Shown piece by piece: positions 10,714 to 38,584 of a stretch of 64,000 nucleotides of DNA. A program made the translations under genes and the position numbers. Numbering within the stretch: the first letter of the stretch is position 1; the number at the start of each line of letters is the position of its first letter. Below the pieces are notes generated by a model. That model made no database searches, was not told where the DNA came from, and was given only the letters and a program-made list of their open reading frames with translations. This DNA comes from Planotetraspora kaengkrachanensis (GTDB lineage: Bacteria > Actinomycetota > Actinomycetes > Streptosporangiales > Streptosporangiaceae), in assembly GCF_016862895.1 (NCBI RefSeq), contig NZ_BONV01000002.1:124001-188000 (forward strand), given 5' to 3'.

Positions 10714-11082
10714 TCAGTGCCGCCGAAGGGCGGGCCTCAACGCCGCCTCGACGATGCCGAGCGCCTCGCGCACGTCGAGGCCGACGCTGGCGACGACGGC
10801 CGCGTATTCGGCGGCCGCCTGGACGGCCCGCTCGCGGGCACGCTCGCCGGCCGCAGACACGAACGACCCCGCCCTCCCCCGGGTCTCGATCAGCCCGGCC
10901 TCCTCCAGCTCCCGGTAGGCACGGCCCACCGTGTTGACGGCCAGGCCGAGGTCGGTCGCGAGCCGGCGGATGGTCGGCAGGCGGGAGCCCACCGGCAGCG
11001 TGCGGTCCTGGATCTGCCGGGCGAGCTGGGCCCGCAGTTGCTCGAACGGCGGCACCGGCGAGGCCGCGTTGATGACGATCAT
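10714..11082 (-). CDS. Short GntR-family transcriptional regulator (YtrA type)
   Basis: 122 residues, consisting of little more than a GntR winged helix: PPFEQLRAQLARQIQ, LPVGSRLPTIRRLATDLGL, VNTVGRAYRELEEAGLIETR and GRAGSFV, followed by a short C-terminal helical tail. This size and layout fit the YtrA subfamily, which usually controls an adjacent ABC exporter; no exporter is next to it here, so its target is unclear. It ends five bases from the bidirectional terminator and starts 14 bases from a divergent DHFR-like remnant, so whatever it once regulated may have been lost. Confidence 0.85.
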   Translation of the reverse strand: MIVINAASPVPPFEQLRAQLARQIQDRTLPVGSRLPTIRRLATDLGLAVNTVGRAYRELEEAGLIETRGRAGSFVSAAGERARERAVQAAAEYAAVVASVGLDVREALGIVEAALRPALRRH

Positions 11083-11096
11083 CGAACGCCCACCGT

Positions 11097-11333
11097 GTGC
11101 CGCGCCATGGCAGCCTGTCCCTGATCCAGACCCTCGTCAAGGCCGACCTCGTCGACGAGTTCCGGCTGCTGGTCTTCCCGGTCGTGCTCGGCACCGGCAA
11201 GCGGCTGTTCGGCGACATCGTCCCGACCGGTCTCAAGCTCGTCGACTCCAAGGCGACCAGCACCGGAGTGATGCTGCAGACCTATGAGACGACCGGCCGC
11301 CCGGCCTTCGCCACGGTCCCGCCGCTCGAGTAG
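11097..11333 (+). pseudogene. Remnant of dihydrofolate reductase/RibD-C family protein (C-terminal third)
   Basis: The encoded stretch HGSLSLIQTLVKADLVDEFR, then LLVFPVVLGTGKRLFGD, is the characteristic C-terminal part of the actinomycete DHFR-like (RibD C-terminal domain) proteins, which are normally about 180-200 residues. Here only about 78 residues remain and the NADPH-binding N-terminal two thirds are absent: the divergent GntR gene begins 14 bases upstream of the first possible start. Most likely a deletion joined the GntR gene to the tail of this gene. It still reaches its normal stop and a strong terminator follows. Confidence 0.75.
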
Positions 11334-11450: not shown

Positions 11451-11999
11451 TCACCGCCGCCCGCCGAACTCCCAGTCGTGCACCTCGACTCCGGCGTACA
11501 GGTCCTGGGTCAGGACGGCGCGTGCCGCGGCGGGGTCCGGCGCCCGGACCAGCGCGGCCGTACCCAGCCAGGCGACGCCGTCGTCCGACAGCAGCGGCCC
11601 GTACGCGATCAGTTCGTCCCGGCCGGACGGCACGGCGAGGTCCACGGCCTGCCCCGAACCGAGGCCGAGCACCAGATACCGGTTGCCGCCGGTCCGGCCG
11701 CCGGGGAAGTCCCACATGGTGCGTCCCAGCAGGTTGCGCCAGCGGCGCAGCATGACGTCCCGGTACACGCCGGCCTGGTAGTTGGGCTCGTCGAACGCGA
11801 ACGCGCGTGCGGCGGCGGGGTCGGGCAGGTCGACGATGTGCACGCTGCCGGTGGCCGCGTCGTCGTGGGCGGTGAAGGTCGGGCCACGGGCGATCAGCTC
11901 CTTCGCGTACCGGTCCATGTACGACCAGTGCTCTTCCAGCAGCTCGTCGCGTAACGCCATCGAGCCGGGCCTGTCGCGGTGATAGCAGAAGAACTCCAT
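11451..11999 (-). CDS. Tandem YCII-related domain protein
   Basis: 182 residues. Two YCII-like (dimeric alpha/beta barrel) units can be seen: the first from MEFFCYHRDRPGS with the helix LRDELLEEHWSYMDRYAKEL and strand SVHIVDLPDP, the second from NRYLVLGLGSGQ with DELIAYGPLLSDDG and VRAPDPAAARAVL. YCII domains are small putative ligand-binding or enzymatic folds without a well-defined role. ATG 11999 was preferred over an ATG 12 codons earlier because the domain starts there, although the ribosome site is weak. It reads toward the strong terminator at 11386-11417. Function unknown. Confidence 0.75.
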   Translation of the reverse strand: MEFFCYHRDRPGSMALRDELLEEHWSYMDRYAKELIARGPTFTAHDDAATGSVHIVDLPDPAAARAFAFDEPNYQAGVYRDVMLRRWRNLLGRTMWDFPGGRTGGNRYLVLGLGSGQAVDLAVPSGRDELIAYGPLLSDDGVAWLGTAALVRAPDPAAARAVLTQDLYAGVEVHDWEFGGRR

Positions 12000-12069
12000 G
12001 CCCCATTGTCGATCACTCCGGGTCCGATGCTCCAAGCATCCGGCGCGGCCGGGGACGCCTTCCGCCGGT

Positions 12070-12657
12070 TCACGTTCTCGACGCCGGGGCTGTGGAGACG
12101 GCGGCGGCCCGGCTCTCCTTCGCCCCGGCGAACAGTGCGATGACGACGCCGAGCATCAGCAGGGTCGTCGCCAGATCGACGATGTTCGTCAGCAGGTCGT
12201 GGCGGTCGCTCTGGGCGAAGGTGAGCACGAAACCTCCGACGCCGTAGACGAGGGGCGCCCATCGGCGCCCGCCCGGCAGGTCGGCCCGGCGGGCGATGAG
12301 GATCCCCGCGACGAGCGCAACGAGCGTCGACCCGAGACCGCCGATCGGCAGGAGCACGTTGTCCTGCCCGGTCGTGAGCATGACGATCCCGCCGACGCTC
12401 AGCAGCGCCCAGCAGACCGGCCACAGAGCCAGCGTGATCCGGGACGGCAGGCCCGGCCCGGCCTCCTTCAACAGGGCGAGGCCCGCGGTGAAGACCGCCA
12501 TGGCGACACACGTGATGTCGCCGAGCGTGTTCCCGACGTACCAGGAGGTCGTCCGGTCCGCCGGGTCGCCGAGCATGAAGGGCCACCCGGCGAGGGAGAA
12601 CAGGGCGCCGGCGATGCCGACGGCGCCGAAGACACGGGCGCGGGAGGAGTGGTGCAT
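12070..12657 (-). CDS. Polytopic membrane protein of unknown function
   Basis: 195 residues with six likely membrane helices (for example FGAVGIAGALFSLAGWPFML, ITCVAMAVFTAGLALL, LALWPVCWALLSVGGIVML, TLLMLGVVIALFAGA). ATG 12657 has a good ribosome site, AAAGGATC, and the 37 codons that could be added upstream look non-coding. A second small membrane protein gene lies 58 bases upstream on the same strand, so the two probably form an operon. A two-component system is divergent from them and may regulate them. I do not recognise the family. Confidence 0.7.
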   Translation of the reverse strand: MHHSSRARVFGAVGIAGALFSLAGWPFMLGDPADRTTSWYVGNTLGDITCVAMAVFTAGLALLKEAGPGLPSRITLALWPVCWALLSVGGIVMLTTGQDNVLLPIGGLGSTLVALVAGILIARRADLPGGRRWAPLVYGVGGFVLTFAQSDRHDLLTNIVDLATTLLMLGVVIALFAGAKESRAAAVSTAPASRT

Positions 12658-28228: not shown

Positions 28229-28705
28229 CTACGTGCCGGTGGAGCCGAGCCAGGCCGCGACGCCGTTCAGCGTGCCCGCACCGCTGCCGGCTTCGACCTG
28301 CTCGGCGAGGCCGGCGATGGTCACGGAGCGCAGCGCGTCCCTTCGCGCCGACTCGGAGGCGGCCATCGCGCGGGAGATCGGGCACGGCGTTGTGCAGTAT
28401 TCGGCCGGAGTCGCCATGGGGCCCCGCTGGCGGATCTCCGTGCAGACGAAGGCGGGCTCGGGCCCGTCGATGGCTTCGACGACGTCGAGCAGCGTGATCT
28501 CCGCCGGAGGGCGGCTCAGCACGTAACCGCCCGACTTGCCCTGCACTGAGAACACGAGACCGGCCCGCGCGAGTGCCTGGAGCTGCTTGGCCAGGTAGGT
28601 GGGCGACACCTGGTGCAACTCGGCCAGCCGGGCGGCCGGCACAGGCGCCGCCACGGACGTGAGCACGACGCAGCAGTGCACCGCCCACTCGACGCCCTCG
28701 GACAT
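28229..28705 (-). CDS. Rrf2-family transcriptional regulator
   Basis: 158 residues. The Rrf2 winged helix is clear: SEGVEWAVHCCVVLTSVAAP, AARLAELHQVSPTYLAKQLQ, ALARAGLVFSVQGKSGGYVL and SRPPAEITLLDVVEAIDG. Three cysteines follow in FVCTEIRQRGP and YCTTPCPIS. IscR and NsrR bind Fe-S clusters with three Cys in this region, but the spacing here (17 then 4) differs from theirs, so cluster binding or thiol sensing is possible but unproven. ATG 28705 has GGTGAAG upstream. A perfect inverted repeat lies between it and the divergent NAD(P)-binding gene, which it probably represses together with itself. Confidence 0.87.
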   Translation of the reverse strand: MSEGVEWAVHCCVVLTSVAAPVPAARLAELHQVSPTYLAKQLQALARAGLVFSVQGKSGGYVLSRPPAEITLLDVVEAIDGPEPAFVCTEIRQRGPMATPAEYCTTPCPISRAMAASESARRDALRSVTIAGLAEQVEAGSGAGTLNGVAAWLGSTGT

Positions 28706-28734
28706 CTTCACCGCGCCATGGTATCCGTACCCCC

Positions 28735-28761
28735 ATACTCGGACATGTTTTATCCGAGTAT
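28735..28761. promoter_or_regulatory. Perfect 9-9-9 inverted repeat, probable Rrf2 operator
   Basis: Arms ATACTCGGA (28735-28743) and TCCGAGTAT (28753-28761) are perfect inverted repeats with a nine-base AT-rich spacer, midway between the divergent Rrf2 and NAD(P)-binding genes. A TATAGT hexamer (28759-28764) overlaps the right arm and could be the -10 box of the + strand gene, so a bound regulator would block it. Confidence 0.75.
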
Positions 28762-28804
28762 AGTGACGCGAAGACCCAAGTGCTCCGGAGTTGAAAGGCT
28801 CACC

Positions 28805-29542
28805 ATGAAGATCGCAGTCATCGGCGGGACCGGCCTGATCGGCTCGCAGGTCGTCAGGAATCTCACCGCGGCCGGGCACGAGGCCGTGCCGTACTCGCTG
28901 TCCACGGGCGTGGACGTCATCACCGGCGCGGGCGTTGAGGACGCGGTGACGGGCGCGGACGTCGTCGTCAACCTCACCAATTCCCCGACCTTCGACGACG
29001 CCTCCCCCGCCTTCTTCCAGACCTCGATGGACAACCTCCTCGCCGCGAGCGCGAAGGCCGGCGTCGGGCACTTCGTCATCCTGTCCATCGTCGGCGTCGA
29101 CCTAGCGCCCGACCTCGTCTACTACCGGGCGAAGGTGCTTCAGGAGAACCTGCTGCGGGCGGGATCGGTCCCGTTCTCGATCGTCCGCGCCACGCAGTTC
29201 ATGGAGTTCATGGACGCGACCATGTCCTGGACCACCGAGGGCGACGTCGTGCGCCTGCCGCGGACGCCCATTCAGCCGATCGCCGCCGCTGACGTCGCCG
29301 CCGCGGTCTCGGAGGTCGCCGCCGGCGCGCCCCTGTACGGCGTCCGCGACATCGCCGGACCCGACGTCTTCACCCTCGACGAACTCGGCAGGATCACCCT
29401 GAAGGCCAGGGGCGACAGCCGGGTCGTCGTCATCGACGACACCGCGGGCCTGTTCAGCGCGATCAAGGGCGACGTCATCATCGCCCCGGCCGACGCCCTC
29501 ATCGCCCCCACCCACTACGCCGACTGGCTCGCGGCCAACTGA
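28805..29542 (+). CDS. NAD(P)-binding atypical SDR (NmrA-like)
   Basis: 245 residues. The N-terminus KIAVIGGTGLIGSQVVRNL is a GxxGxxG Rossmann dinucleotide-binding loop. The rest follows the short atypical SDR pattern (ADVVVNLTNSPTFDDA, VGHFVILSIVGVD, YYRAKVLQENLLRAGSVPFS, VRATQFMEF). It resembles the protein at 34303-35058 along its whole length, so the two are paralogues. ATG 28805 follows GAAAGG. Its expression is probably governed by the divergent Rrf2 regulator through the palindrome 44 bases upstream. Proteins of this kind act as NAD(P)H-dependent quinone reductases or redox sensors; the actual substrate is unknown. Confidence 0.87.
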   Translation: MKIAVIGGTGLIGSQVVRNLTAAGHEAVPYSLSTGVDVITGAGVEDAVTGADVVVNLTNSPTFDDASPAFFQTSMDNLLAASAKAGVGHFVILSIVGVDLAPDLVYYRAKVLQENLLRAGSVPFSIVRATQFMEFMDATMSWTTEGDVVRLPRTPIQPIAAADVAAAVSEVAAGAPLYGVRDIAGPDVFTLDELGRITLKARGDSRVVVIDDTAGLFSAIKGDVIIAPADALIAPTHYADWLAAN

Positions 29543-29627: not shown

Positions 29628-30349
29628 TCATGCGTGATGCCAGAGATGCAGCTTGTCGGGGTTCAGGACGATCCACACAGCGGTGACCTCGGCTCCCGCG
29701 ACGCTCAGGCTGACCACCGCCACCGCGTGGCCCGCCCGGCGCAGCACCAGACCTGTGCGGCCGTTGACGGACTCGACGCTCACCTGGGTGCCGGGCGGCC
29801 CGACCAGCAGGGTCACGACGAACCGGGCGGCCGCGTCCGCGCCGTATGTCGGGCGCACCGAGGCGCGCACCTTGCCGCCGCCGTCGCTCACGACCAGCGC
29901 GTCGGCGGCCAGGACCGTCTTCAGCGCCGCCACGTCTCCGGTTTCGCACGCTGCCGCGAACCGGCGCGCGACCCGGTCATGCCGGTCGAGCATCGCCTTC
30001 CGTGGCCCGGGCTGACCGGGGGCCGCCGCGTCGCGCCCGAGCGGGGAGCCCGGACGGCGGCCACGGGAGCCGGCGCCGGGTCCCGCTCAGGTGCGGCGCC
30101 GGAAGGCGGGAACGCGTCCGGAATGGCGAGCAGTTCCATGCAGATGCCCCCGGCGACCCTGGTCAGCCATGCTCGCGGCACCTCGATCGCGGCACGGTCC
30201 TCGTCGTCGAGTGCGTACCAGCGGCGGTAGGTCTCCTGGACGATCCGGTCGGCCGTGGCGGCCGAACCGAACATCCACAGGGCGATCTCGAGCAGGTGCT
30301 GCCGTTCGTCGAGCATCTCCGCCAGGGAACCGGCGCCCGCCTCGGTCAT
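29628..30349 (-). pseudogene. Decayed SigJ/ECF41-like sigma factor: sigma4 deleted and frame shifted
   Basis: Two halves of one gene lie in different frames. Read from ATG 30349 the first 85 residues are a sigma2-like region (LAEMLDERQHLLEIALWMFG, ADRIVQETYRRWYALDDEDR, VPRAWLTRVAGGICMELLAI). From about 29993 down to the stop at 29628 another frame gives a SnoaL-type C-terminal domain (VARRFAAACETGDVAALKTV, VVSDGGGKV, VNGRTGLVLR, VWIVLNPDKLHLW), the signature of fused ECF sigma factors. Between them only about 90 bases remain, where an intact member has a sigma4 region of roughly 60-90 codons, and the frame changes. A deletion plus frameshift is the simplest reading. It sits downstream of the intact ECF41 gene and retains an ECF41-type promoter at 30505-30531. 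Confidence 0.72.
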
Positions 30350-30504: not shown

Positions 30505-30531
30505 ACCGGACAGGGCGTCCCGTTGTGACAG
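30505..30531 (-). promoter_or_regulatory. ECF41-type promoter upstream of decayed sigma gene
   Basis: On the - strand TGTCACA (30531-30525), a 16-base spacer, then GGTC (30508-30505) followed by TTAG. The known ECF41 promoter consensus is TGTCACA with a CGTC-like -10 about 16 bases on. The same spacing and flanking bases recur at 35111-35137, 36762-36788 and 36817-36843. Confidence 0.7.
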
Positions 30532-30549
30532 CCACGGGACGATCAGCGG

Positions 30550-30582
30550 CCGTGCCGGGCGTCCCGGCGGGACGCGGCACGG
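30550..30582 (-). terminator. Terminator after the ECF41 sigma gene
   Basis: Stem 30550-30565 / 30569-30582 (arms CCGTGCC and GGCACGG at the base, GGCGTCCC and GGGACGC at the top) with a three-base loop and a two-base bulge, ten bases after the sigma factor stop. Confidence 0.6.
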
Positions 30583-30592
30583 TTGGCCGCGG

Positions 30593-31510
30593 TCAGATGT
30601 CCCGGCGGAGCCGGGCGCGTGATCGCTCGAATGCGTCGAGTTTGGCCGGGTTGACGATCCACATGAGGTGGTGGATGCCTTTCGGCGAGGCTTCGACGGT
30701 GAGAAGCGTGACCCCGGTCCGGCCACGGGGGACCAGCAGTCCCGCGTGGCCGTTCGCTTCGACCCACGTGAGGTCGGCCCCGGTCCAGTGACGCGGCGCG
30801 AGCGCGGCGACGAACTTCGCCACGCGTGTGGCGCCCAGCAGCGGAAAACGGGCGGCCCCGCGGATGCCGCCTCCGTCGGAGGTGCTGACGACGTCCGCGG
30901 CGAACAGGGATTCGAGGGCTGCGACGTCCCCCGTCTGGGCGGCCGCGAGGAAGACCTCCAGCAGGCGTCGATGTTCGGTCCTGTCGATGGTCTCGTGCCG
31001 TCCGGCGTTCAGATGCCTGCGGGCGCGGCTCACGAACTGGCGGACGTTGACCGGGGTGAGCTGGAGGATCTCGGCGATCTGGGGGTAGGGGTAGTCGAAC
31101 GCCTCGCGCAGGACGTAGGCGGCCCGCTCCGTGGGGGTGAGCCTCTCGAGCAACAGCAGGAAGGCCAGCTCGAGCGCTTCGCCTCGTTCGGCTCCGAGGG
31201 TGGGGTCGAGGCTGGTGTCGACGGGTTCGGGAAGCCAGGGACCTAGGTAGGCCTCGCGCCGCGCGCGGGCGGACTGCGCGACGTTGATGGCCAGCCTGGT
31301 GGTGACCAGCGCCAGGAAGGCCGAGGGGTTCTCGATGGTCGCGCGGTCGGTCTGCTGCCAGCGCAACCAGACCTCCTGAAGAATGTCCTCGGCCTCCGCC
31401 GCGCTGCCGAGCATCCGGTAGGCGATGCCGAACAGGCGTGGGCGCATCTCGACGAAGGCGAGGGCGGCCTGTTCGAGAGCGCTTTCCTGGTCCACGGATT
31501 CTGCATGCAT
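30593..31510 (-). CDS. ECF41-group (SigJ-like) sigma factor with C-terminal SnoaL domain
   Basis: 305 residues. Sigma2 is MRPRLFGIAYRMLGSAAEAE and DILQEVWLRWQQ; sigma4 is LERLTPTERAAYVLREAF, YPQIAEILQLTPVNVRQFVS. The last 110 residues form a SnoaL-like domain with SDGGGIRGAARFPLLG and the terminal MWIVNPAKLDAF. ECF41 sigma factors use this fused domain instead of an anti-sigma factor, and DGGG and NPxKL are its regulatory motifs. ATG 31510 is preceded by a weak GGGTGACC. The group is usually linked to an oxidoreductase or epimerase gene; here NAD(P)-binding genes lie on both sides. It is 38 bases downstream of the iron protein gene, so it is probably cotranscribed from the ECF41-type promoter at 35111-35137, giving positive autoregulation. 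Confidence 0.92.
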   Translation of the reverse strand: MHAESVDQESALEQAALAFVEMRPRLFGIAYRMLGSAAEAEDILQEVWLRWQQTDRATIENPSAFLALVTTRLAINVAQSARARREAYLGPWLPEPVDTSLDPTLGAERGEALELAFLLLLERLTPTERAAYVLREAFDYPYPQIAEILQLTPVNVRQFVSRARRHLNAGRHETIDRTEHRRLLEVFLAAAQTGDVAALESLFAADVVSTSDGGGIRGAARFPLLGATRVAKFVAALAPRHWTGADLTWVEANGHAGLLVPRGRTGVTLLTVEASPKGIHHLMWIVNPAKLDAFERSRARLRRDI

Positions 31511-31548
31511 GGTCACCCGGCCTCGCGGCGTCGGCGTCGGCTTCTTCA

Positions 31549-33384
31549 TCAGGTTGCGGAGGTCGTCTCGTCGCGTGTCTCGCGGGCGGCGGCGGGCGCG
31601 GTGCCCTGCCGATGGTCGCCTGCGGGGGGCTCCTCGCGGAAGCCGATCTTTCTGTGGGTTCCGTCGCACAGCGGCTTGTTCGCGGAATGGCCGCAGCGGC
31701 ACAGGGTCATCCTGTTGCGGGCCTCCAGCGGCCTGCCGTCCGCCCGCAGGACCGGCACTCCCCCGGTGACCCACAGCGCACCGGCCAGCCCGTCCTCCTC
31801 CTCCAGGACGGAAACGGCCCGGGGCAGGTCGGCCTCGATCGTGTCGCCCCCACGTTGGAGGGCGTAGCTGTACGACCCCGAGGGGCAGTGATCGATGCGG
31901 CCCATGATGTCGGAGCGCACGTCGCTGTCGTCGGTGTCGGCGAGCATCTCGGCGATCGGCCTGGTGCGTCCGATGCAGAAGGCGGCGTGGACGCACAGCT
32001 CTCCCACCCGCTGGGCCGAGATCCCCACCCCGTCGTGGACGTGCTGCAGTTCCCTGTACGGCCGCTCGCCCGCCGTCTCCGTGCCGTCGAACCCGATCGC
32101 CGCGTGGGTCCCGTCGCAGAACGGCTTGGTGCCCGAGTGGCCGCAGCGGCACAGCGCGTACGTCTGCTCGGTCTCCAGGGCTTCACCGGTCTTCCACGTG
32201 AGCGCGTTGTTCTCCGCGGAGACGATCTTGGTTTTGCGGCGGAGCGGGACACCGCCGAACACGATGTAGGGGCCGTTGCTGAGCACGACGATCCTCTGCT
32301 CGTCGCCGGCGTCCCACCTCCGCGGATCGGATTCGACGTACTCGAAGGTGGGCCCGGCCGTGGTGCCGTCATCGTCGGGCAGCCGCATCAGTGCCTGGGC
32401 CTGCGCCTTGAGCTGGTACATGGTGGCGACGGCGACGCGCAGCAGCCTGGGATTGCCGTTGAAGGCCTGCTCGAGCAGGTGCAGGATGTCGCCGTAGGTC
32501 TGGTTGAACTCCTCCTGAGCCGTGCGGATCGCACTGCCCGGAGCATGGTCGGCCAGCCGTGGATTGCGCCGCATCGGACGGACACCGGCCCAGTCCACCG
32601 CGACGGCCTCACCCGTGGGACCCGACTGCGGAGTATCACCCCGCCGATACCGCCGCCCGATCCTCAGCTCCTGGAACCGGTAGTAATGCCCCACCTCATC
32701 CCGATCCGGATGGAACACATCCTGATCCCCGTCCCAGACCTCACCCCGCGACGTGCCCTCACCCTGCTCGACGATCTCCTCCAACGCCGCGAGCGCCGAC
32801 GCCAGATCCCTCACCACGACCAGCTTCCCCGCAGTGTGCCGGAAATGACCCGCACCCAGCTGACGAGCCGGATCACCGCTGAAGACCGCCTGCTCTCCGA
32901 GCCGGTCACACAGATGACGCAGCCCCTGTTCGACGGCGGCGTAGAACTGCCCGATCGTCTCGTACTGATCGCCCTCCGCCGCGGCACCGGGCGGAGCCGG
33001 ACGCTCGATCCGCAGGAACATCTCGAGCGCTTCGACGCCGAACGGGAGCAGCGACAACTCCAACGACCGGTCGCCGTGCGGCAGGGGCCGCGGATGCGGC
33101 GGCAACATCCGCGCCGGGTCCAGCCGCGGGCCGCCGCCGACCGCGTTCAGCAGGTTCGCCGCCAACGCCAGATGCAGCATCTCCTCGGAGAAGACACTGC
33201 TCACCACCTCGACGGCCTCGGGATTGCGCTCCGGATCGAGCGAGTACAACGCGCACAGATAGGGCGGCAGAGTCGCATGCTCCAACTCGATCGCCCACTG
33301 CAGATGTTCACGAAGGCCGTCGATCGTGTCGATCCGCGCCGCGGAGTGGGCGGCGGCCGGCTCCCGCGACTCAGTTTGTTTCAT
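31549..33384 (-). CDS. Multidomain iron protein: ferritin-like domain, divergent 4Fe-4S domain and two CDGSH domains
   Basis: 611 residues. The N-terminal 300 are a ferritin-like four-helix domain of the VioB/iminophenyl-pyruvate type (LQWAIELEHATLPPYLCALY, VSSVFSEEMLHLALAANLLN, FNQTYGDILHLLEQAFNG), with Glu/His metal ligands. After a beta-rich linker come a first CDGSH motif CRCGHSGTKPFCDGTH, then a Fer4_19-like region with Cys in ELCVHAAFC and HCPSGSYSY, then a second CDGSH motif CRCGHSANKPLCDGTH near the end. Each CDGSH site binds a [2Fe-2S] cluster by three Cys and one His. The protein can thus hold a di-iron centre and three Fe-S clusters. It lies between a 76-residue acidic protein and the ECF41 sigma gene. 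Role: probably iron storage or redox stress; inference. Confidence 0.85.
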   Translation of the reverse strand: MKQTESREPAAAHSAARIDTIDGLREHLQWAIELEHATLPPYLCALYSLDPERNPEAVEVVSSVFSEEMLHLALAANLLNAVGGGPRLDPARMLPPHPRPLPHGDRSLELSLLPFGVEALEMFLRIERPAPPGAAAEGDQYETIGQFYAAVEQGLRHLCDRLGEQAVFSGDPARQLGAGHFRHTAGKLVVVRDLASALAALEEIVEQGEGTSRGEVWDGDQDVFHPDRDEVGHYYRFQELRIGRRYRRGDTPQSGPTGEAVAVDWAGVRPMRRNPRLADHAPGSAIRTAQEEFNQTYGDILHLLEQAFNGNPRLLRVAVATMYQLKAQAQALMRLPDDDGTTAGPTFEYVESDPRRWDAGDEQRIVVLSNGPYIVFGGVPLRRKTKIVSAENNALTWKTGEALETEQTYALCRCGHSGTKPFCDGTHAAIGFDGTETAGERPYRELQHVHDGVGISAQRVGELCVHAAFCIGRTRPIAEMLADTDDSDVRSDIMGRIDHCPSGSYSYALQRGGDTIEADLPRAVSVLEEEDGLAGALWVTGGVPVLRADGRPLEARNRMTLCRCGHSANKPLCDGTHRKIGFREEPPAGDHRQGTAPAAARETRDETTSAT

Positions 33385-33460
33385 TGATGTCGTGCCTCTG
33401 ACTGTCTGATGGGGCGGATTTCACCGGCACCGGGTCGGTGCCGGCCGGGGGCGGCGGTCG

Positions 33461-33691
33461 TCACGCGCGCCGATCGTCCGGCCGATGGCCCTCTTCCAGC
33501 GCCTCGACCGCGCCGAGCAGACCACGCAAACCGATCTCCTCACGCTCGGCGTCCGCAGGATCGAACCGCCATTCGGAGACCGGCAGCTCGGCCGCCTCCT
33601 CCGGACGGCTCGACTCGGCCAAGATCACTTCCTCCTCGACCTCGATCTCGAGCTCGTACAGAAATCCGTTTTCGCCGTTCGCGGCGTTCAT
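33461..33691 (-). CDS. Small acidic protein upstream of the ferritin-like/CDGSH gene
   Basis: 76 residues, strongly acidic (FLYELEIEVEEEVILAESS near the start, DAEREEIGLRGLLGAVEALE near the end). No cysteines and no membrane segment. ATG 33691 directly follows an excellent ribosome site, GGAGGAGCG, which supports a real gene. It is 76 bases upstream of the iron protein gene on the same strand, so it may be a partner or chaperone of it. I do not recognise a family. Confidence 0.6.
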   Translation of the reverse strand: MNAANGENGFLYELEIEVEEEVILAESSRPEEAAELPVSEWRFDPADAEREEIGLRGLLGAVEALEEGHRPDDRRA

Positions 33692-33815
33692 CGCTCCTCC
33701 ATGCATGGCGTGGCTGGACGGCGGGCCGGGGGCCGGCCCGCGTGAATCACCTGGTCGATCTCTTCGCGGGCTCAGACCCGATGCCGTGGGGGCACCGCGG
33801 CGAGCCCGTCCGCGC

Positions 33816-34253
33816 TCAGGACGGCCGAGGGGCGCGGCGGTCCGTGCGCTGCGCGAGCTCCTGTTCGTCCACCAGGGTGAGCATCGGCTGGCCCGGTTCG
33901 CACAACATCGTGACGGTGAACCGGAGCGGGACGTCGTCGCGGTTGTTGCCGTCCTGGTAGTGGATGACGTCGCCGCCCGGCTCCCAGAACGCCTCACCGG
34001 CGCGCACGACCCGTTCCGGATCGCCCTCCACCTCGAGCAGCATCTCGCCCTCCACCACGAAGCCGAACGCCGGTCCCGAGTGCCGATGCGGCGGGGTGCC
34101 GGGGTCGCCGGGCGGATACTCGACGACCAGGGTCATGACGTGCGCACCCGCCGGGATGAACGGAGGCGCGGCCTCCTGCAGCACGGTGACCGCGGTCTGC
34201 CACGCGACCGATCTCGGCGTGGGCCCGTCGGTGGCGGGGTCGATGTCGGGCAT
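33816..34253 (-). CDS. Single-domain cupin
   Basis: 145 residues. A cupin barrel with the metal motif in TPPHRHSGPAFGFVVEGEML (two His and the distant Glu) and the second motif GGDVIHYQDGN. The metal site is therefore intact, so the protein could be an enzyme or a small-molecule sensor. ATG 34253 follows AAAGGCGGA. It is 49 bases after the NAD(P)-binding gene, so both are probably transcribed from the ECF41-type promoter. Substrate unknown. Confidence 0.85.
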   Translation of the reverse strand: MPDIDPATDGPTPRSVAWQTAVTVLQEAAPPFIPAGAHVMTLVVEYPPGDPGTPPHRHSGPAFGFVVEGEMLLEVEGDPERVVRAGEAFWEPGGDVIHYQDGNNRDDVPLRFTVTMLCEPGQPMLTLVDEQELAQRTDRRAPRPS

Positions 34254-34302
34254 GGCATCCGCCTTTCGTGGACTGAGGGCGATGACGTCCGGGTGCGGCG
34301 CG

Positions 34303-35058
34303 CTACTTGCCGGCAGCGGTCAGGCCGGGCCAGTCGCGGTACCGGATCCGGCCGAGGGTCGCGTCGTCCCCGGGGACCAGCGACCGGTCCTCAAGCTCGG
34401 CTCCGAAGTACCGCGCGTGCGGGTCGGTGACCACCACACGCGGGTCGCCCCAGGCGGCCAGAGCGTCGCGGAAGAACTCGTCCATGCGGACCTGCTCGGG
34501 TCCGGCGATCTCGACGCGGCCGTTCAACGGCCGCCCGACGGAGACCCTGCCGACCGCCTGCGCGACCTCCTCGCCCGCCATGGGCTGGAACCGCACGGGT
34601 GCGATCCGCACCTCGTTTCCTTCCGTGGCCGAGTCGGCGATCCCCCGGACGAACTCGAAGAACTGAGTGGCGTGCACGAGCGAGAACGGAATCGACGAGC
34701 CCTCGATCAGCTTCTCCTGGGCGACCTTCGCCCGGAAGTAGTCGCTCCCGGGCAGCCGCTCCGTTCCCACCACCGACAGCGCGACATGGTGACCGACGCC
34801 GGCCGCCGCCTCGGCGGCGAGCAGGTTGCCCGTCGCGGTCTCGAAGAACTCCTGCACCTCGGGGCCCACGAAGATCGGGGAGTTCGACACGTCGATCACC
34901 ACCTGGGCGCCCGCCAGGGCCTCCGCCAGCCCCTCCCCCGTGAGAGTGTTCACACCGGTGCTCGGCGCCGCCGCCAGCACCTCGTGACCATGTTCTCCCA
35001 GCTTGGCCACCAGCTTCGACCCGATCAGGCCGGTGCCGCCGACTACCACGATCTTCAT
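34303..35058 (-). CDS. NAD(P)-binding atypical SDR (NmrA-like), ECF41 partner type
   Basis: 251 residues. N-terminal Rossmann loop KIVVVGGTGLIGSKLVAKL; other motifs VVIDVSNSPIFVGPE, VGHHVALSVVGTERL, DYFRAKVAQEKLIEGSSIPF and VHATQFFEFV match the paralogue at 28805-29542. ECF41 sigma factors are typically linked to a gene for a carboxymuconolactone decarboxylase, oxidoreductase or epimerase, and this is the likely partner here. ATG 35058 follows AGGAAGG, and the predicted transcription start of the ECF41-type promoter lies about 45 bases upstream. It heads a unit running through the cupin toward the sigma gene. Confidence 0.88.
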   Translation of the reverse strand: MKIVVVGGTGLIGSKLVAKLGEHGHEVLAAAPSTGVNTLTGEGLAEALAGAQVVIDVSNSPIFVGPEVQEFFETATGNLLAAEAAAGVGHHVALSVVGTERLPGSDYFRAKVAQEKLIEGSSIPFSLVHATQFFEFVRGIADSATEGNEVRIAPVRFQPMAGEEVAQAVGRVSVGRPLNGRVEIAGPEQVRMDEFFRDALAAWGDPRVVVTDPHARYFGAELEDRSLVPGDDATLGRIRYRDWPGLTAAGK

Positions 35059-35110
35059 GACAAGCCTTCCTGTCGCCGGCGCGCCCTGTTGCCAACCGGT
35101 CGCCAGCTAA

Positions 35111-35137
35111 GACAGGACAGCCTCCGGGCCTGTGACA
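35111..35137 (-). promoter_or_regulatory. ECF41-type promoter of the NAD(P)-binding gene
   Basis: TGTCACA (35137-35131), exactly 16 bases, then TGTC (35114-35111) with TTAG after it, on the - strand, about 50 bases before the gene start at 35058. It matches the other three sites in this island and the ECF41 consensus. Confidence 0.78.
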
Positions 35138-35460
35138 GTTTTCGTTGAACTTTTCAGTAGATTCCCGACTTCACCGACACCCCGCGGGCCGAGCCGGAGC
35201 GGATCCTCCCGCCGCCGGAGCGACGTCCCCGCAGCGACGCGATCCACGGCAGGCCTCGCCGGTGGGGAGCCGCCTCTGCGAGAGCGGCCGTACACCTGAG
35301 AGAGAAATGTCATAAATCATGCCGCTATTAAGCGTCTTTCCCGAAATCACTCCTCGCCATGCGACCAAGAGGGGACACCATGAGCTCGCCCGAAGGAGCG
35401 ATGCCAGCGCAGGAGTGATCTCCGATTCCTCGACGGGGCAGCCGTTCGGCTTCGGCCCGG
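35138..35460. other. Non-coding gap between LtrA and the NAD(P)-binding gene
   Basis: About 320 bases downstream of the LtrA gene and upstream of the ECF41-type promoter. I see no reading frame resembling a protein family, no clear hairpin and no repeat. The only notable feature is an AT-richer stretch near 35310-35345. Confidence 0.4.
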
Positions 35461-36720
35461 CTACTCGACGCCGCTCCGGAGCTCGGAGATCGCGCGCCAC
35501 GTCGACGCGTTCCGGCGCCGGCTCCGATCCGCCCCGGCCGCGATCGTGACGGCGACCAGGAGGACGCAGATGGCCGCGATCCCCGCCACCACGGCGGCCA
35601 CGCCGACCTGGTGCGTCGCGAGTGGCAGCAGCAGAACGAGGGTGGCGCCGCCCAGAACCGCCCCGGGCCGCATGGCGGGTTCCGCGGCGACGTACGCGTG
35701 GACCGCCCACACCAGAACGAGGCACACGCCGACGGGGATGGCGACGGCGTAGCCGGACGCCGTGGGCGACACCCCCACGTGGTGCCCGCTCTGCTCCACC
35801 GCCACCTCGAGCCCCGCGCCGAGGGCCGCCAGGGCCGCGAAGATGCCGTAGTGGCCGTATCCCCACAGGTAGGACCGATCACGGCGGTCGCTGAGGCCCT
35901 CTCCGGCCTCCACGAGGAAGTACAGCCACCAAAGAGCGAACAACAGGACGAGGCCGGAGACGGCGACGACGATGAAGGGGCTGCTGATGTCGCCCGCCTC
36001 GAGCGCCCTGCCGACTCCTCTGCTCGCGGCCAGGACGCTCTCACCGAGCAGGATGATCGTGAACAGGCCGTAGCGCTCGGCGATGTGGTGCGGGTGCCAG
36101 TTGGTGGCCACGGCCTTCTCGGCCCACCAGGGCACCGCGAGCTCAGCGGCGGCCAGAACGATGAAGAACAGCAGTTCCAACGACGGGGGCAGGATCCCCA
36201 TGTCCGTGACGAGGAAGCGGAGGATCCACCAGAACTGCAGGAGGCCGATGCCGACGGCGTAGCGCAGCGCGGTGCGGCGCCGCTCCGGATCTTCGAGACC
36301 CGCCCGCACCCATTGGGCGACGAGCGCCACCCTCATGACGAAGTAGCCCAACGTGACGATCTTGAAGTCGCCCGTGCTCGCGGCGAGCGGCACGCCTGCC
36401 GCGAGCACCAGGACGCCGGCCATCTGCACCATGGTCAGCAGCCGGTACGCGACGTCGTCGGTGTCGTAGGACGAGGCGAACCAGGTGAAGTTCATCCACG
36501 CCCACCAGATCGCGAAGAACACCTGGAGGAACGGGATCAGCCCGGCGAGGCCGTGACCGTCGGCGATGTCGTGCGCGAGTTCGGCGGTGACGGCGGCGAC
36601 CGCCACCACGAAGGTGAGGTCGAACAGAAGCTCCAGCTGACTCGATACGCGGTGCGGCTCGTCGATGGGGCGAGCGCGCATCCGGACCCGGATCCGGCGC
36701 GTGGGGGTTGCTGGCGACAA
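35461..36720 (-). CDS. Low temperature requirement A (LtrA) family membrane protein
   Basis: About 419 residues. The N-terminus RVSSQLELLFDLTFVVAVA is the hallmark of LtrA proteins, followed by about ten membrane helices (FLQVFFAIWWAWMNFTWFAS, YGLFTIILLGESVLAASRGV, LVLLFALWWLYFLVE). LtrA is named from Listeria growth at low temperature; its molecular role is unknown. TTG 36720 was chosen because GGGAG precedes it and it lies about 34 bases after the predicted start of an ECF41-type promoter; ATG 36681 would remove 13 residues. It is probably part of the ECF41 regulon. Confidence 0.87.
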   Translation of the reverse strand: MSPATPTRRIRVRMRARPIDEPHRVSSQLELLFDLTFVVAVAAVTAELAHDIADGHGLAGLIPFLQVFFAIWWAWMNFTWFASSYDTDDVAYRLLTMVQMAGVLVLAAGVPLAASTGDFKIVTLGYFVMRVALVAQWVRAGLEDPERRRTALRYAVGIGLLQFWWILRFLVTDMGILPPSLELLFFIVLAAAELAVPWWAEKAVATNWHPHHIAERYGLFTIILLGESVLAASRGVGRALEAGDISSPFIVVAVSGLVLLFALWWLYFLVEAGEGLSDRRDRSYLWGYGHYGIFAALAALGAGLEVAVEQSGHHVGVSPTASGYAVAIPVGVCLVLVWAVHAYVAAEPAMRPGAVLGGATLVLLLPLATHQVGVAAVVAGIAAICVLLVAVTIAAGADRSRRRNASTWRAISELRSGVE

Positions 36721-36761
36721 GGTGGGTCTCCCGTCGTCTCTCACGAGTGCGTCCCGTCTAA

Positions 36762-36788
36762 GACAGGGCAGCCCGCCGATCTGTGACA
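36762..36788 (-). promoter_or_regulatory. ECF41-type promoter of the LtrA gene
   Basis: TGTCACA (36788-36782), 16 bases, TGTC (36765-36762) then TTAG, on the - strand, 42 bases before the TTG start of LtrA. It is back to back with a + strand copy at 36817-36843. Confidence 0.78.
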
Positions 36789-36816
36789 ACGCGCACAGGA
36801 AACTTCTCCGCCGGGC

Positions 36817-36843
36817 TGTCACAGGCCGCGAGGCCGGCTTGTC
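36817..36843 (+). promoter_or_regulatory. ECF41-type promoter in front of a gene remnant
   Basis: TGTCACA (36817-36823), 16 bases, TGTC (36840-36843) then GTAG, on the + strand. It points at a short remnant of an NAD(P)-binding gene starting at 36859. The orientation and spacing equal those of the three other sites, so this promoter has outlived its gene. Confidence 0.72.
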
Positions 36844-36858
36844 GTAGGTGGTGACCGC

Positions 36859-36932
36859 ATGACAGCGGAACGTCCCCCGACGAGCACGCAGATCGTGTTG
36901 ACCGGCGGACCGGCCTGATCGGGTCGAAACGG
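36859..36932 (+). pseudogene. N-terminal remnant of a third NAD(P)-binding (NmrA-like) gene
   Basis: ATG 36859 opens a 19-codon frame ending in QIVLTGGPA and a stop. Restoring one base after the second Gly of TGG gives IVLTGGTGLIGSKR, which matches the Rossmann loop of the two NAD(P)-binding paralogues in this island (VVVGGTGLIGSK in the copy at 34303-35058). Beyond about 36932 the resemblance stops. The fragment lies directly after an ECF41-type promoter, the context expected for an ECF41 partner gene. A deletion and a frameshift removed the rest. Confidence 0.65.
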
Positions 36933-37061: not shown

Positions 37062-37889
37062 GTGACGGCATTCCCGACGCCCCCCTACGACTTCGAGGCC
37101 TCCCAGCCGTCCCCCCACGGCCGGTCCGCGCCGGTGATCCAAAAGCCCGGCGACCGGACGTGCGAGTTGACCCGCGAGCTGGAGAACAAACGACGATTCG
37201 CCTCCGACGCCTCACATGAGCTGCGCACGGCGGTCGCGGGTCTGCGCACGGAGCTGGAGGAGGCCCGCCTGCATCCGGATGAGACCGATCTCGGCGATCT
37301 GCTCGCCCGGGCGCTCGGCGACGTCGCCCGGTTGGACGCGATCATCACCGACCTGCGCGTCCTCGCCGGGATGGACGCCGGCCCGCCGCTGAAGCCCCGG
37401 TGCGTCGACCTCGCGGAGATGGTCCGGGACGAGGTCGCCAGAAGGACCGACCGCTTCGACGTACGGCTCCGGCTGGAGACGGGCGTGACCGTCCAGGCCG
37501 TGCCGATCCGGATCGGCCGGCTGCTCACCAACCTGCTGGACAACGCCCAACGGCACGCCCGGCAGCTGGTCGAGGTCCGGGTGGGCACCGACGGCGACCA
37601 CGCGGTCCTGACCGTCACCGACGACGGAGACGGTGTCGCGGAGGGCGAGCGGGAACGGATCTTCCAGCGCTTCACCCGGCTGACGGCAGCGCGCCGCCTC
37701 GACCACACCGGCACCGGCCTGGGCCTGGCGATCGCCCGCGACATCGCCCACGCTCACATCGGCAGCCTGCACGCCGAAGAGTCGGAAACAGGCGGCGCAC
37801 GCTTCGTCCTGCGGCTTCCTCTCTCGGGCGCGGCCGCCCCTGCCGTTCGACGTACGGACCGGCACCGGCGCGGAGCGACGGATTCTTGA
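37062..37889 (+). CDS. Soluble histidine kinase core without sensor domain (copy 1)
   Basis: 275 residues. It begins almost at the dimerisation helix: RRFASDASHELRTAVAGLRT contains the phospho-accepting His. HATPase_c boxes follow: LLTNLLDNAQRHARQLVEVR (N box), VTDDGDGVAEGERERIFQRF (G1/F) and HTGTGLGLAIARDIAHAH (G2). There is no membrane helix, HAMP or other input domain; the first 45 residues look disordered. GTG 37062 follows GGAAGGAG. It is about as similar to the next gene as a duplicate would be, and no response regulator lies next to either. Confidence 0.85.
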   Translation: MTAFPTPPYDFEASQPSPHGRSAPVIQKPGDRTCELTRELENKRRFASDASHELRTAVAGLRTELEEARLHPDETDLGDLLARALGDVARLDAIITDLRVLAGMDAGPPLKPRCVDLAEMVRDEVARRTDRFDVRLRLETGVTVQAVPIRIGRLLTNLLDNAQRHARQLVEVRVGTDGDHAVLTVTDDGDGVAEGERERIFQRFTRLTAARRLDHTGTGLGLAIARDIAHAHIGSLHAEESETGGARFVLRLPLSGAAAPAVRRTDRHRRGATDS

Positions 37890-37930
37890 GCTCCGCCGAG
37901 GACCGGGAAGACAAGCCGAGGAGACCGGAC

Positions 37931-38584
37931 ATGGACCGGCAGCGCCAGTTCGCCGCGGACGCCTCGCACGAGTTGCGCACGCCGCTGGCGGCGCTGCGGT
38001 TGTGCGTGGAGGAGGCGCGACTGCACCCGGACGACGTCGATCTGCCGGATCTGCTCGGCCGCCTGACCGACGGCCTCCGCCGGCTGGAGAACATCGTCGA
38101 CGACCTGCTCGTGCTGGCCGCGCTCGAGGTCGACCTCGAAGGAAGGTCGGAGGAGGTGAACGTCACGAGCCTGGTCGAGACGGTGGCCGCCCGGTGCGCC
38201 GAGAGCTGTGACGTGCGTCTCGACCTCGAGCCCGCGGTGACGGTGGCGGGCGCCCCCTGGCAGATCACCCGGCTGCTCGTCAATCTGCTCGACAACGCCC
38301 GGCGTCACGCCCAGCGCAGGCTAGGAGTGAACCTGCGCCGCGACGGCGATCACGCCGAGCTGGCCGTGGCCGACGACGGGCAGGGTGTCCGCCAGGCCGA
38401 CCGCGACCGCGTCTTCCAGCCGTTCGCACGCGTGGACGCCGCCCGCGGCCGCGACCGCGGAGACGCCGGCCTGGGCCTGGCCGTCGCCCGGGACATCGCC
38501 TCGGCCCACCGCGGCACCCTGCACGTCGAGGACTCCGCCGACGGTGGCGCGCGGTTCGTGTTGCGCCTACCGCTCGTCTCTTGA
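37931..38584 (+). CDS. Soluble histidine kinase core without sensor domain (copy 2)
   Basis: 217 residues, a tandem paralogue of the preceding gene. The His box is RQFAADASHELRTPLAALRL; the ATP-binding boxes are LLVNLLDNARRHAQRRLGVN, VADDGQGVRQADRDRVFQPF and GDAGLGLAVARDIASAH. The shared segment EEARLHPD shows their common origin. ATG 37931 has GAGGAGA eight bases upstream; a TTG at 37886, overlapping the previous stop, is also in frame but adds unconserved residues. It ends with VLRLPLVS just before the kynurenine operon. No input domain and no regulator nearby. Confidence 0.83.
   Translation: MDRQRQFAADASHELRTPLAALRLCVEEARLHPDDVDLPDLLGRLTDGLRRLENIVDDLLVLAALEVDLEGRSEEVNVTSLVETVAARCAESCDVRLDLEPAVTVAGAPWQITRLLVNLLDNARRHAQRRLGVNLRRDGDHAELAVADDGQGVRQADRDRVFQPFARVDAARGRDRGDAGLGLAVARDIASAHRGTLHVEDSADGGARFVLRLPLVS

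Follow-up and report, generated by a model that had tools for sequence, protein, structure and literature searches.

A conserved ECF41-type promoter set in Planotetraspora kaengkrachanensis and a candidate companion protein derived from a sigma factor

Does a group of matching promoter-like sequences around a sigma factor gene amount to a regulon and, if so, which sigma factor reads it and what is the sigma-like gene that stands behind one of the promoters? The question is raised by a 64,000-nucleotide stretch of the Planotetraspora kaengkrachanensis genome (8.77 Mb in 96 contigs; assembly GCF_016862895.1), referred to here as the window. The window corresponds to C2:124001-188000 (contig NZ_BONV01000002.1) and contains SIG-A, a gene for a sigma factor of the ECF41 family. 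A preliminary description of this DNA had proposed that four ECF41-type promoters define a local SigJ-like regulon, and that the gene behind one of them is a decayed sigma paralog. ECF41 sigma factors are a widely distributed group. They are described as having no obvious anti-sigma factors and as controlling a single linked gene or operon (PMC3426412). Taken as a whole, the evidence makes it probable that the window holds part of an ECF41 regulon conserved in Streptosporangiales and other actinomycetes, with a companion protein of sigma factor descent that may act in trans.

The motif TGTCACA-N15..17-NGTC was found in the window at four positions, named P1 to P4, and the spacer was 16 bases long in each, as had been described. 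Dinucleotide shuffles of the window produced a mean of 0.20 matches, and four were reached in 0 of 100 shuffles. Promoter P1 (30504..30530, minus strand; TGTCACA-N16-GGTC followed by TTAG) precedes the gene of the companion, a protein with a sigma2 region and a SnoaL-like domain; its earlier coordinates, 30531-30505, were one base off and are corrected to 30530-30504. Promoter P2 (35111..35137, minus strand; TGTCACA-N16-TGTC followed by TTAG) heads an operon that extends from an NmrA-like NAD(P)-binding gene to SIG-A. Promoter P3 (36762..36788, minus strand; TGTCACA-N16-TGTC followed by TTAG) precedes a gene for an LtrA membrane protein. The window annotation agreed with the placement of the NAD(P)-binding gene and its cupin neighbor behind P2 and of LtrA behind P3. 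Promoter P4 (36817..36843, plus strand; TGTCACA-N16-TGTC followed by GTAG) had been assigned to a gene remnant. A relic of the 5′-end of an NmrA gene does lie behind P4, but the view that the site serves just this remnant is not supported: an open kinase-like gene with HisKA and HATPase domains follows downstream, and the promoter is kept in relatives. The preliminary description had compared these sites with an ECF41 consensus of TGTCACA with a CGTC-type −10 element. This matches the published ECF41 consensus, TGTCACA-N16-CGTC, with TGTT in Bacillus licheniformis (PMC3426412), while the window sites share the −35 element and the spacer and differ at the first base of the −10 element, which is T or G (TGTC/GGTC).

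A search of the complete genome had been suggested as a check of the regulon. With the loose pattern TGTCACA-N15..17-NGTC the result was noisy (26 matches versus 11 for the reversed control), and this pattern was rejected as a definition of the regulon. An extended motif, TGTCACA-N16-KGTCWTAG with at most one mismatch, was used in its place and gave six matches versus none in the reversed control. They comprise the four window sites (P1 to P3 exact, P4 with one mismatch), one site on contig C36 and one on contig C37. The C36 site (37816-37786, minus strand, one mismatch) precedes a homolog of the P4-linked kinase and a second ECF41 gene, SIG-B; no recognized gene stands behind the C37 site. 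At the sites examined near more distant paralogs, the first base of the −10 element was C (contigs C5, C6, C44 and C47) or G (C31). The set of sites in the window is real, and the regulon extends beyond the window to the SIG-B operon on C36.

Conservation was assessed in two overlapping sets of loci from relatives, one of 59 loci found with the sigma protein (L046-L104) and one of 33 loci around companion genes, from which the own-genome locus, L190, was excluded. The weak matches L109-L125 were not analyzed, and L105-L108 were scanned but not counted. The 33 loci (630,203 bases) contain 76 sites versus 0 for the reversed motif, and the genome control (11 in 8.77 Mb) leads to an expectation of about one by chance. 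Fifty-nine of the 76 sites could be assigned to a gene of the set and 17 could not. A site was present before 26 of 27 NmrA matches, at 62-85 bases from the start of the match, before 11 of 16 LtrA matches, and 68-249 bases upstream of all four kinase matches that extend into the first 25 residues, one of which (L185) is in two pieces. In L159, where only the second kinase copy is present, the kinase-side site is about 740 bases away from it. A site at 179-180 bases upstream of the companion gene was found in the sister-species loci L158, L159 and L160. Sites were infrequent before the sigma genes (6/38, distant paralogs included), the cupin genes (3/20), the small open reading frame (ORF) of the operon (1/24) and the ferritin/CDGSH genes (0/18); these low counts fit genes located inside an operon. 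The spacer was 16 bases long in 73 of the 76 sites. Among the 73 distinct sites with this spacer the first −10 base was T in 49, G in 21, C in 2 and A in 1, which supports the T/G variant seen in the window. The sequences GCTGNCC, directly before the −10 element, and TTAGCTG, after it, were also conserved; they lie beyond the published −35/−10 consensus and could represent an extended −10 element and the start region. Kinship among the loci inflates the apparent conservation, yet the sites before NmrA, LtrA, the kinase and the companion are distinct promoters. Judged by these sequence comparisons, the four window promoters are real and are probably part of a conserved ECF41 regulon.

The sigma factor gene that had been located at 30593-31510 is well supported. 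SIG-A (30593..31510, minus strand) encodes sigma2, a linker with the WLPEP motif, sigma4 and a SnoaL-like C-terminus. Its product scored 333.7 bits against NCBIfam SigX4 (cut-off 323.25; residues 18-294) and 267.7 bits, slightly below the cut-off of 271, against SigJ PRK09636. The sigma2 and sigma4 families PF04542 and PF08281 were above their cut-offs; PF12680 reached 19.8 bits versus a cut-off of 27, and the predicted model shows an alpha-beta C-terminus. A WLPEP-type pattern is present in 63/63 sigma rows of relatives. The C-terminal motif reads NPAKL in SIG-A, and the D of NPDKL was found in 9 of the 56 rows with a readable motif (63 rows in total). Like published ECF41 target genes, the NmrA/epimerase-type gene at 34303-35058 is linked to SIG-A. 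By its sequence features, SIG-A itself is an ordinary ECF41/SigJ-type protein. The genome contains a large ECF41-type set, with 19 matches to the SIG-A protein at E ≤ 1e-10; one is SIG-A itself and another is the SnoaL piece of the companion (two matches at this locus), and several are partial.

The product of SIG-B is 62% identical to SIG-A, and its existence bears on which protein reads the promoters. An intact SIG-A was found in two of five members of the genus, while a SIG-B-like gene (59-65% identity to SIG-A) and the sites were found in all five. In the remaining three, SIG-A is either missing at the locus (L158, L159) or broken up (L157, L213), and these species keep the sites, the target genes and the SIG-B-like gene. 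In L157 and L213, both from one sister species (G002), SIG-A is fragmented while the companion, the sites and the target genes persist. From their identity, and from the kinase homolog and site alongside them in three genomes (L195, L222, L225), we infer that the SIG-B-like genes are one ortholog. The survey covered 26 loci around one-mismatch matches in the genus; not every genus match became a locus. In five of these loci (L196, L223, L228, L229, L231) there was no match to a query protein, and in some of the rest the site is directed at a more distant ECF41 gene. The view of SIG-A as sole regulator is weakened by these data, and in species that lack SIG-A either SIG-B alone reads the regulon or the regulon is one that SIG-A and SIG-B share. 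A broader version, in which the promoters are read mainly or exclusively by SIG-B or another ECF41 paralog and SIG-A is minor or redundant, draws on the same distribution within the genus. It is somewhat unlikely, considering that SIG-A lies in the operon behind P2 and that SIG-A-type genes are located downstream of NmrA sites in many relatives. The promoters would instead be recognized by both SIG-A and SIG-B, which belong to the same clade and probably share them.

The companion gene (29628..30349, minus strand) encodes sigma2, a linker and a SnoaL-like domain, without sigma4. The window copy falls into two frames, one for sigma2 and one for SnoaL, owing to a length change of one base in the linker that could be genuine or stem from an error in the assembly. 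As a general description, however, "decayed sigma paralog" does not hold. In 17 loci of 15 species the gene is uninterrupted and encodes 218-358 residues, and it is open in all four other members of the genus (Planotetraspora thailandica is in both counts; one genus member has a companion identical to that of P. thailandica, L053, over 239 residues). In the 17 loci, a variable, Pro-rich linker joins sigma2 to a SnoaL-like domain, and both sigma4 and WLPEP are absent. No sigma4 match at E ≤ 1 was obtained in the four relatives' companions that were scanned, and sigma4 is absent from the alignment of 17. In these four, PF04542 scored 22.9, 23.6, 12.8 and 24.5 bits (cut-off 24) and PF12680 scored 28.1, 20.6, 30.3 and 22.4 bits (cut-off 27). 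The window companion piece matches SigX4 positions 165-278 with an E value of 7.4e-27, below the whole-protein cut-off. The closest match in the Protein Data Bank, both by sequence and by fold, is SigJ (5xe7; phmmer E 1.5e-11, best stretch residues 9-89). Within the genus, low ratios of nonsynonymous to synonymous substitution rates (dN/dS) were observed for sigma2 (0.105-0.229) and the SnoaL domain (0.189-0.484), both with the window copy included; the linker gave 0.475-1.057 with the window copy left out.

The companion family was found in 32 of 297 genomes of the order (own genome included), which represent 9 of 62 genera, and in 6 of 345 genomes of a sample of the class. A close SIG protein (E ≤ 1e-110) is encoded in 28 of the 32 companion genomes versus 76 of the 297 overall (Fisher p 5.5e-15 without correction for relatedness). 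In three of the remaining four, the same locus holds a SIG of 61-63% identity (L169, L179, L186), and the fourth has SIG-B. SDGGG is kept in 17/17 companions and NPDKL in 16/17, whereas WLPEP is absent from 17/17. The E/DAED motif, present in 29/29 SIG rows, has lost its last Asp in 17/17 companions. This combination, in which NPDKL and SDGGG are kept, WLPEP and sigma4 are gone and the last acid is changed, suits a protein with a sigma factor as its target better than one that is itself a sigma factor.

Genes related to the companion were also found in other loci, within the 10 kb retrieved around an ECF41 gene; their domains were read by eye. Kribbella, Micromonospora, Frankia and others have a SnoaL domain without sigma domains. 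In Streptomyces (L059) and Actinacidiphila (L100), sigma2 is accompanied by a degenerate sigma4-like stretch; another Streptomyces locus (L060) has a sigma4-less form, and L067 a sigma4-like stretch with little sigma2. The companion alignment comprised 16 of the 17 proteins and omitted that of L103, whose linker is long. A tree of 98 SnoaL domains showed a single clade of 30 (support 99/91) with no full-length sigma row inside; this clade contains 18 sigma2-SnoaL rows, eight of the ten sigma-less rows and four degenerate rows. Companions of this clade are present in 29 of the 59 loci. The tree is good but not final evidence for a single origin of the lineage, whose members appear to have shed sigma4 and sigma2 in stages while retaining the SnoaL domain. 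In Frankia L074 (about 11822-12157) the SnoaL companion shares one open frame with a preceding oxidoreductase-like stretch, and in Hamadaea L091 (about 10885-11271) with a following methyltransferase-like stretch, both named by eye; these joined frames are either fusions or chance open frames.

In the mechanism that we propose, an ECF41 holoenzyme would read promoters of the type TGTCACA-N9-GCTGNCC-(T/G)GTCTTA and drive the operon of NmrA, cupin, small ORF, ferritin/CDGSH and sigma genes, with positive autoregulation, as well as LtrA, the HisKA/HATPase protein and the companion. The companion would be a former sigma factor that lost sigma4, WLPEP and, in the motif of sigma2.2 that contacts the polymerase, the final acidic residue, while keeping a SnoaL domain with DGGG and NPDKL-type motifs. 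According to PMC7730460, the C-terminal NPDKL of ECF41 proteins connects the SnoaL domain with WLPEP in the linker, and PMC8999054 reports that the C-terminal extension inhibits through contact with the linker. The companion could act in trans on an ECF41 sigma factor in one of two ways: its NPDKL/SnoaL face would dock on the WLPEP linker, or the SnoaL domains would pair. It would thereby set or damp the response, as a partner-like feedback component. We give a little under even chances to the proposal that the companion modulates its ECF41 sigma factor in trans. A wider version, an old actinomycete lineage of ECF41 sigma factors demoted to trans-acting regulators that control a neighboring ECF41 sigma factor, is possible but tentative; within it, sigma4 would have been lost in Streptosporangiales, most of sigma2 in a Streptomyces copy and both in Kribbella, Micromonospora and Frankia.

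The main rival to trans action is that the companion is an ordinary target of the regulon, a small-molecule-binding or enzymatic SnoaL/NTF2-like protein that shares just ancestry with the sigma factor. After SigJ and SigG1, Foldseek returned just weak NTF2-like matches, among them limonene epoxide hydrolases at E values of 0.005 and above, which would suit a protein of this kind. A sigma2 region would be pointless in it, yet this region has the lowest dN/dS within the genus, and the companion is near an ECF41 gene in most loci examined, which were partly chosen by the sigma gene; on this evidence an ordinary target is unlikely. It is improbable that the companion is an RNA polymerase decoy that damps the ECF41 response through competition of its sigma2 for the core enzyme. 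In favor of a decoy, sigma2 is conserved with low dN/dS and is modeled as helices; the last acid of the core-contacting sigma2.2 motif (its role is given in PMC8999054) is changed in all 17 proteins, however, and the same clade includes relatives without sigma2, so sigma2 is dispensable in the lineage. The frameshift in the window and the lack of sigma4 would suit a decaying, functionless duplicate of a sigma gene, a very improbable reading that is largely refuted for the companion family by the open frames in other species, the dN/dS of sigma2 and a single clade across several families.

Several observations weigh against the proposed action in trans or narrow its basis. Three sister species have kept the companion though they lack an intact SIG-A, which excludes SIG-A as its only partner. 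A takeover of the NPDKL function by the companion was considered and rejected: the D is present in 1/17 SIG rows with a sigma2-SnoaL companion versus 8/39 without one, and with a Fisher p of 0.25 this is no significant division of labor. A strict site stands before the companion gene in just 8 of 31 matches in the 33 loci, and in several loci the gene lies close behind SIG. The window copy is frameshifted, so its species may lack the product. Among the four companions scanned, the Pfam sigma2 family was above its cut-off in one and SnoaL_2 in two, and the mean confidence of the companion model is low to moderate (pLDDT 64.5). The tree rests on 130 columns, with a midpoint root and long branches, and two of the ten sigma-less SnoaL rows fall outside the clade. 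The two sets of loci share members and, having been selected through sigma or companion matches, are not a random sample.

The genes behind the promoters are as follows. The P2 operon has its genes in one order on the minus strand: the NmrA-like NAD(P)-binding protein (34303..35058, 251 amino acids), identified with Pfam and belonging to the epimerase class of ECF41 targets (PMC3426412); a Cupin_2 protein (33816..34253, 145 amino acids); a conserved small acidic ORF (33461..33691, 76 amino acids) with no Pfam or NCBIfam match; a 611-amino acid protein with ferritin-like (PF12902) and CDGSH iron-sulfur domains, the latter in two stretches (31549..33384); and SIG-A. A simple consensus scan found no terminator-like sites on the strand of the P2 operon, and the layout allows transcription from P2 to reach the sigma gene, with autoactivation, as had been suggested. 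The small acidic ORF has 44-73% identity in 17 loci across genera, is often directly 5′ of the ferritin/CDGSH gene and is fused to it in L096. Behind P3, LtrA (35461..36681, minus strand; PF06772, E 1.9e-95) was annotated with a start codon chosen by us. Behind P4, the relic of the NmrA gene start (36890..36928, plus strand; blastn 87.5% over 40 columns, E 2e-9) is followed by the HisKA and HATPase_c protein (37062..37889, plus strand), in which no further type of Pfam domain was detected. In the sister species of L157, relic and kinase gene likewise lie downstream of the matching site, and the kinase homolog on C36 (58% over 214 amino acids) sits between the same promoter type and SIG-B. The interval 37062-38584 (plus strand) contains two successive HisKA/HATPase proteins without a further Pfam domain type. 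A second NmrA-type gene (28676-29542, plus strand) adjoins a divergent ORF within 28229-29071 (minus strand), possibly for an Rrf2-like regulator; the P. thailandica homolog of this NmrA-type gene has an ECF41-type site (L053:3571, minus strand), and none was found in the window. From their family names, one may guess that the NAD(P)-binding, cupin and iron-sulfur targets hint at redox or electrophile stress.

The system shares with the ECF41 factors described before (SigJ of Mycobacterium tuberculosis and Ecf41 of B. licheniformis and Rhodobacter sphaeroides; PMC3426412) the arrangement sigma2-WLPEP-sigma4-SnoaL-like domain, the TGTCACA-N16 element and an adjoining epimerase/NmrA-type gene. 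It differs from them in its (T/G)GTC rather than CGTC −10 element, in several operons rather than a single target, in the LtrA, kinase-like and ferritin/CDGSH genes of the set and in the sigma4-less companion. The ECF56 pair SigG1-RsfG of Streptomyces tsukubaensis (PMC7730460) likewise has a regulator gene next to that of a SnoaL_2 sigma factor, but RsfG is described as lacking a conserved Pfam domain (PMC7730460), whereas the companion descends from a sigma factor. PhyR is another case of a sigma-like protein used as a regulator; it carries a response-regulator domain and works on the anti-sigma factor NepR, while the companion has a SnoaL domain, no receiver domain among the Pfam matches of the four relatives, and no known anti-sigma factor. 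In the split sigma factor SigO-RsoA of Bacillus subtilis, a sigma2-like partner encoded beside the sigma gene completes a sigma factor that lacks sigma2. Unlike SigO, SIG-A has its own sigma2, above the cut-off, and sigma4, and unlike RsoA, the companion carries a SnoaL domain and a changed core-contact motif.

Among the matches listed from the open-licence literature, there was no report of a sigma4-less or sigma-less ECF41 companion or of LtrA or CDGSH genes under ECF41 control. Relative to the accessible literature, the new features are a set of several operons that includes LtrA, kinase-like and iron-sulfur genes, a −10 element specific to the clade, and the ex-sigma companion. The same promoter type stands, strongly conserved, before several operons, with a conserved ex-sigma protein encoded among them. 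Should the companion prove to bind the sigma factor, ECF41 signaling would gain a concrete, testable partner, and the companion would be a clear case of a sigma factor turned into a regulator of sigma factors.

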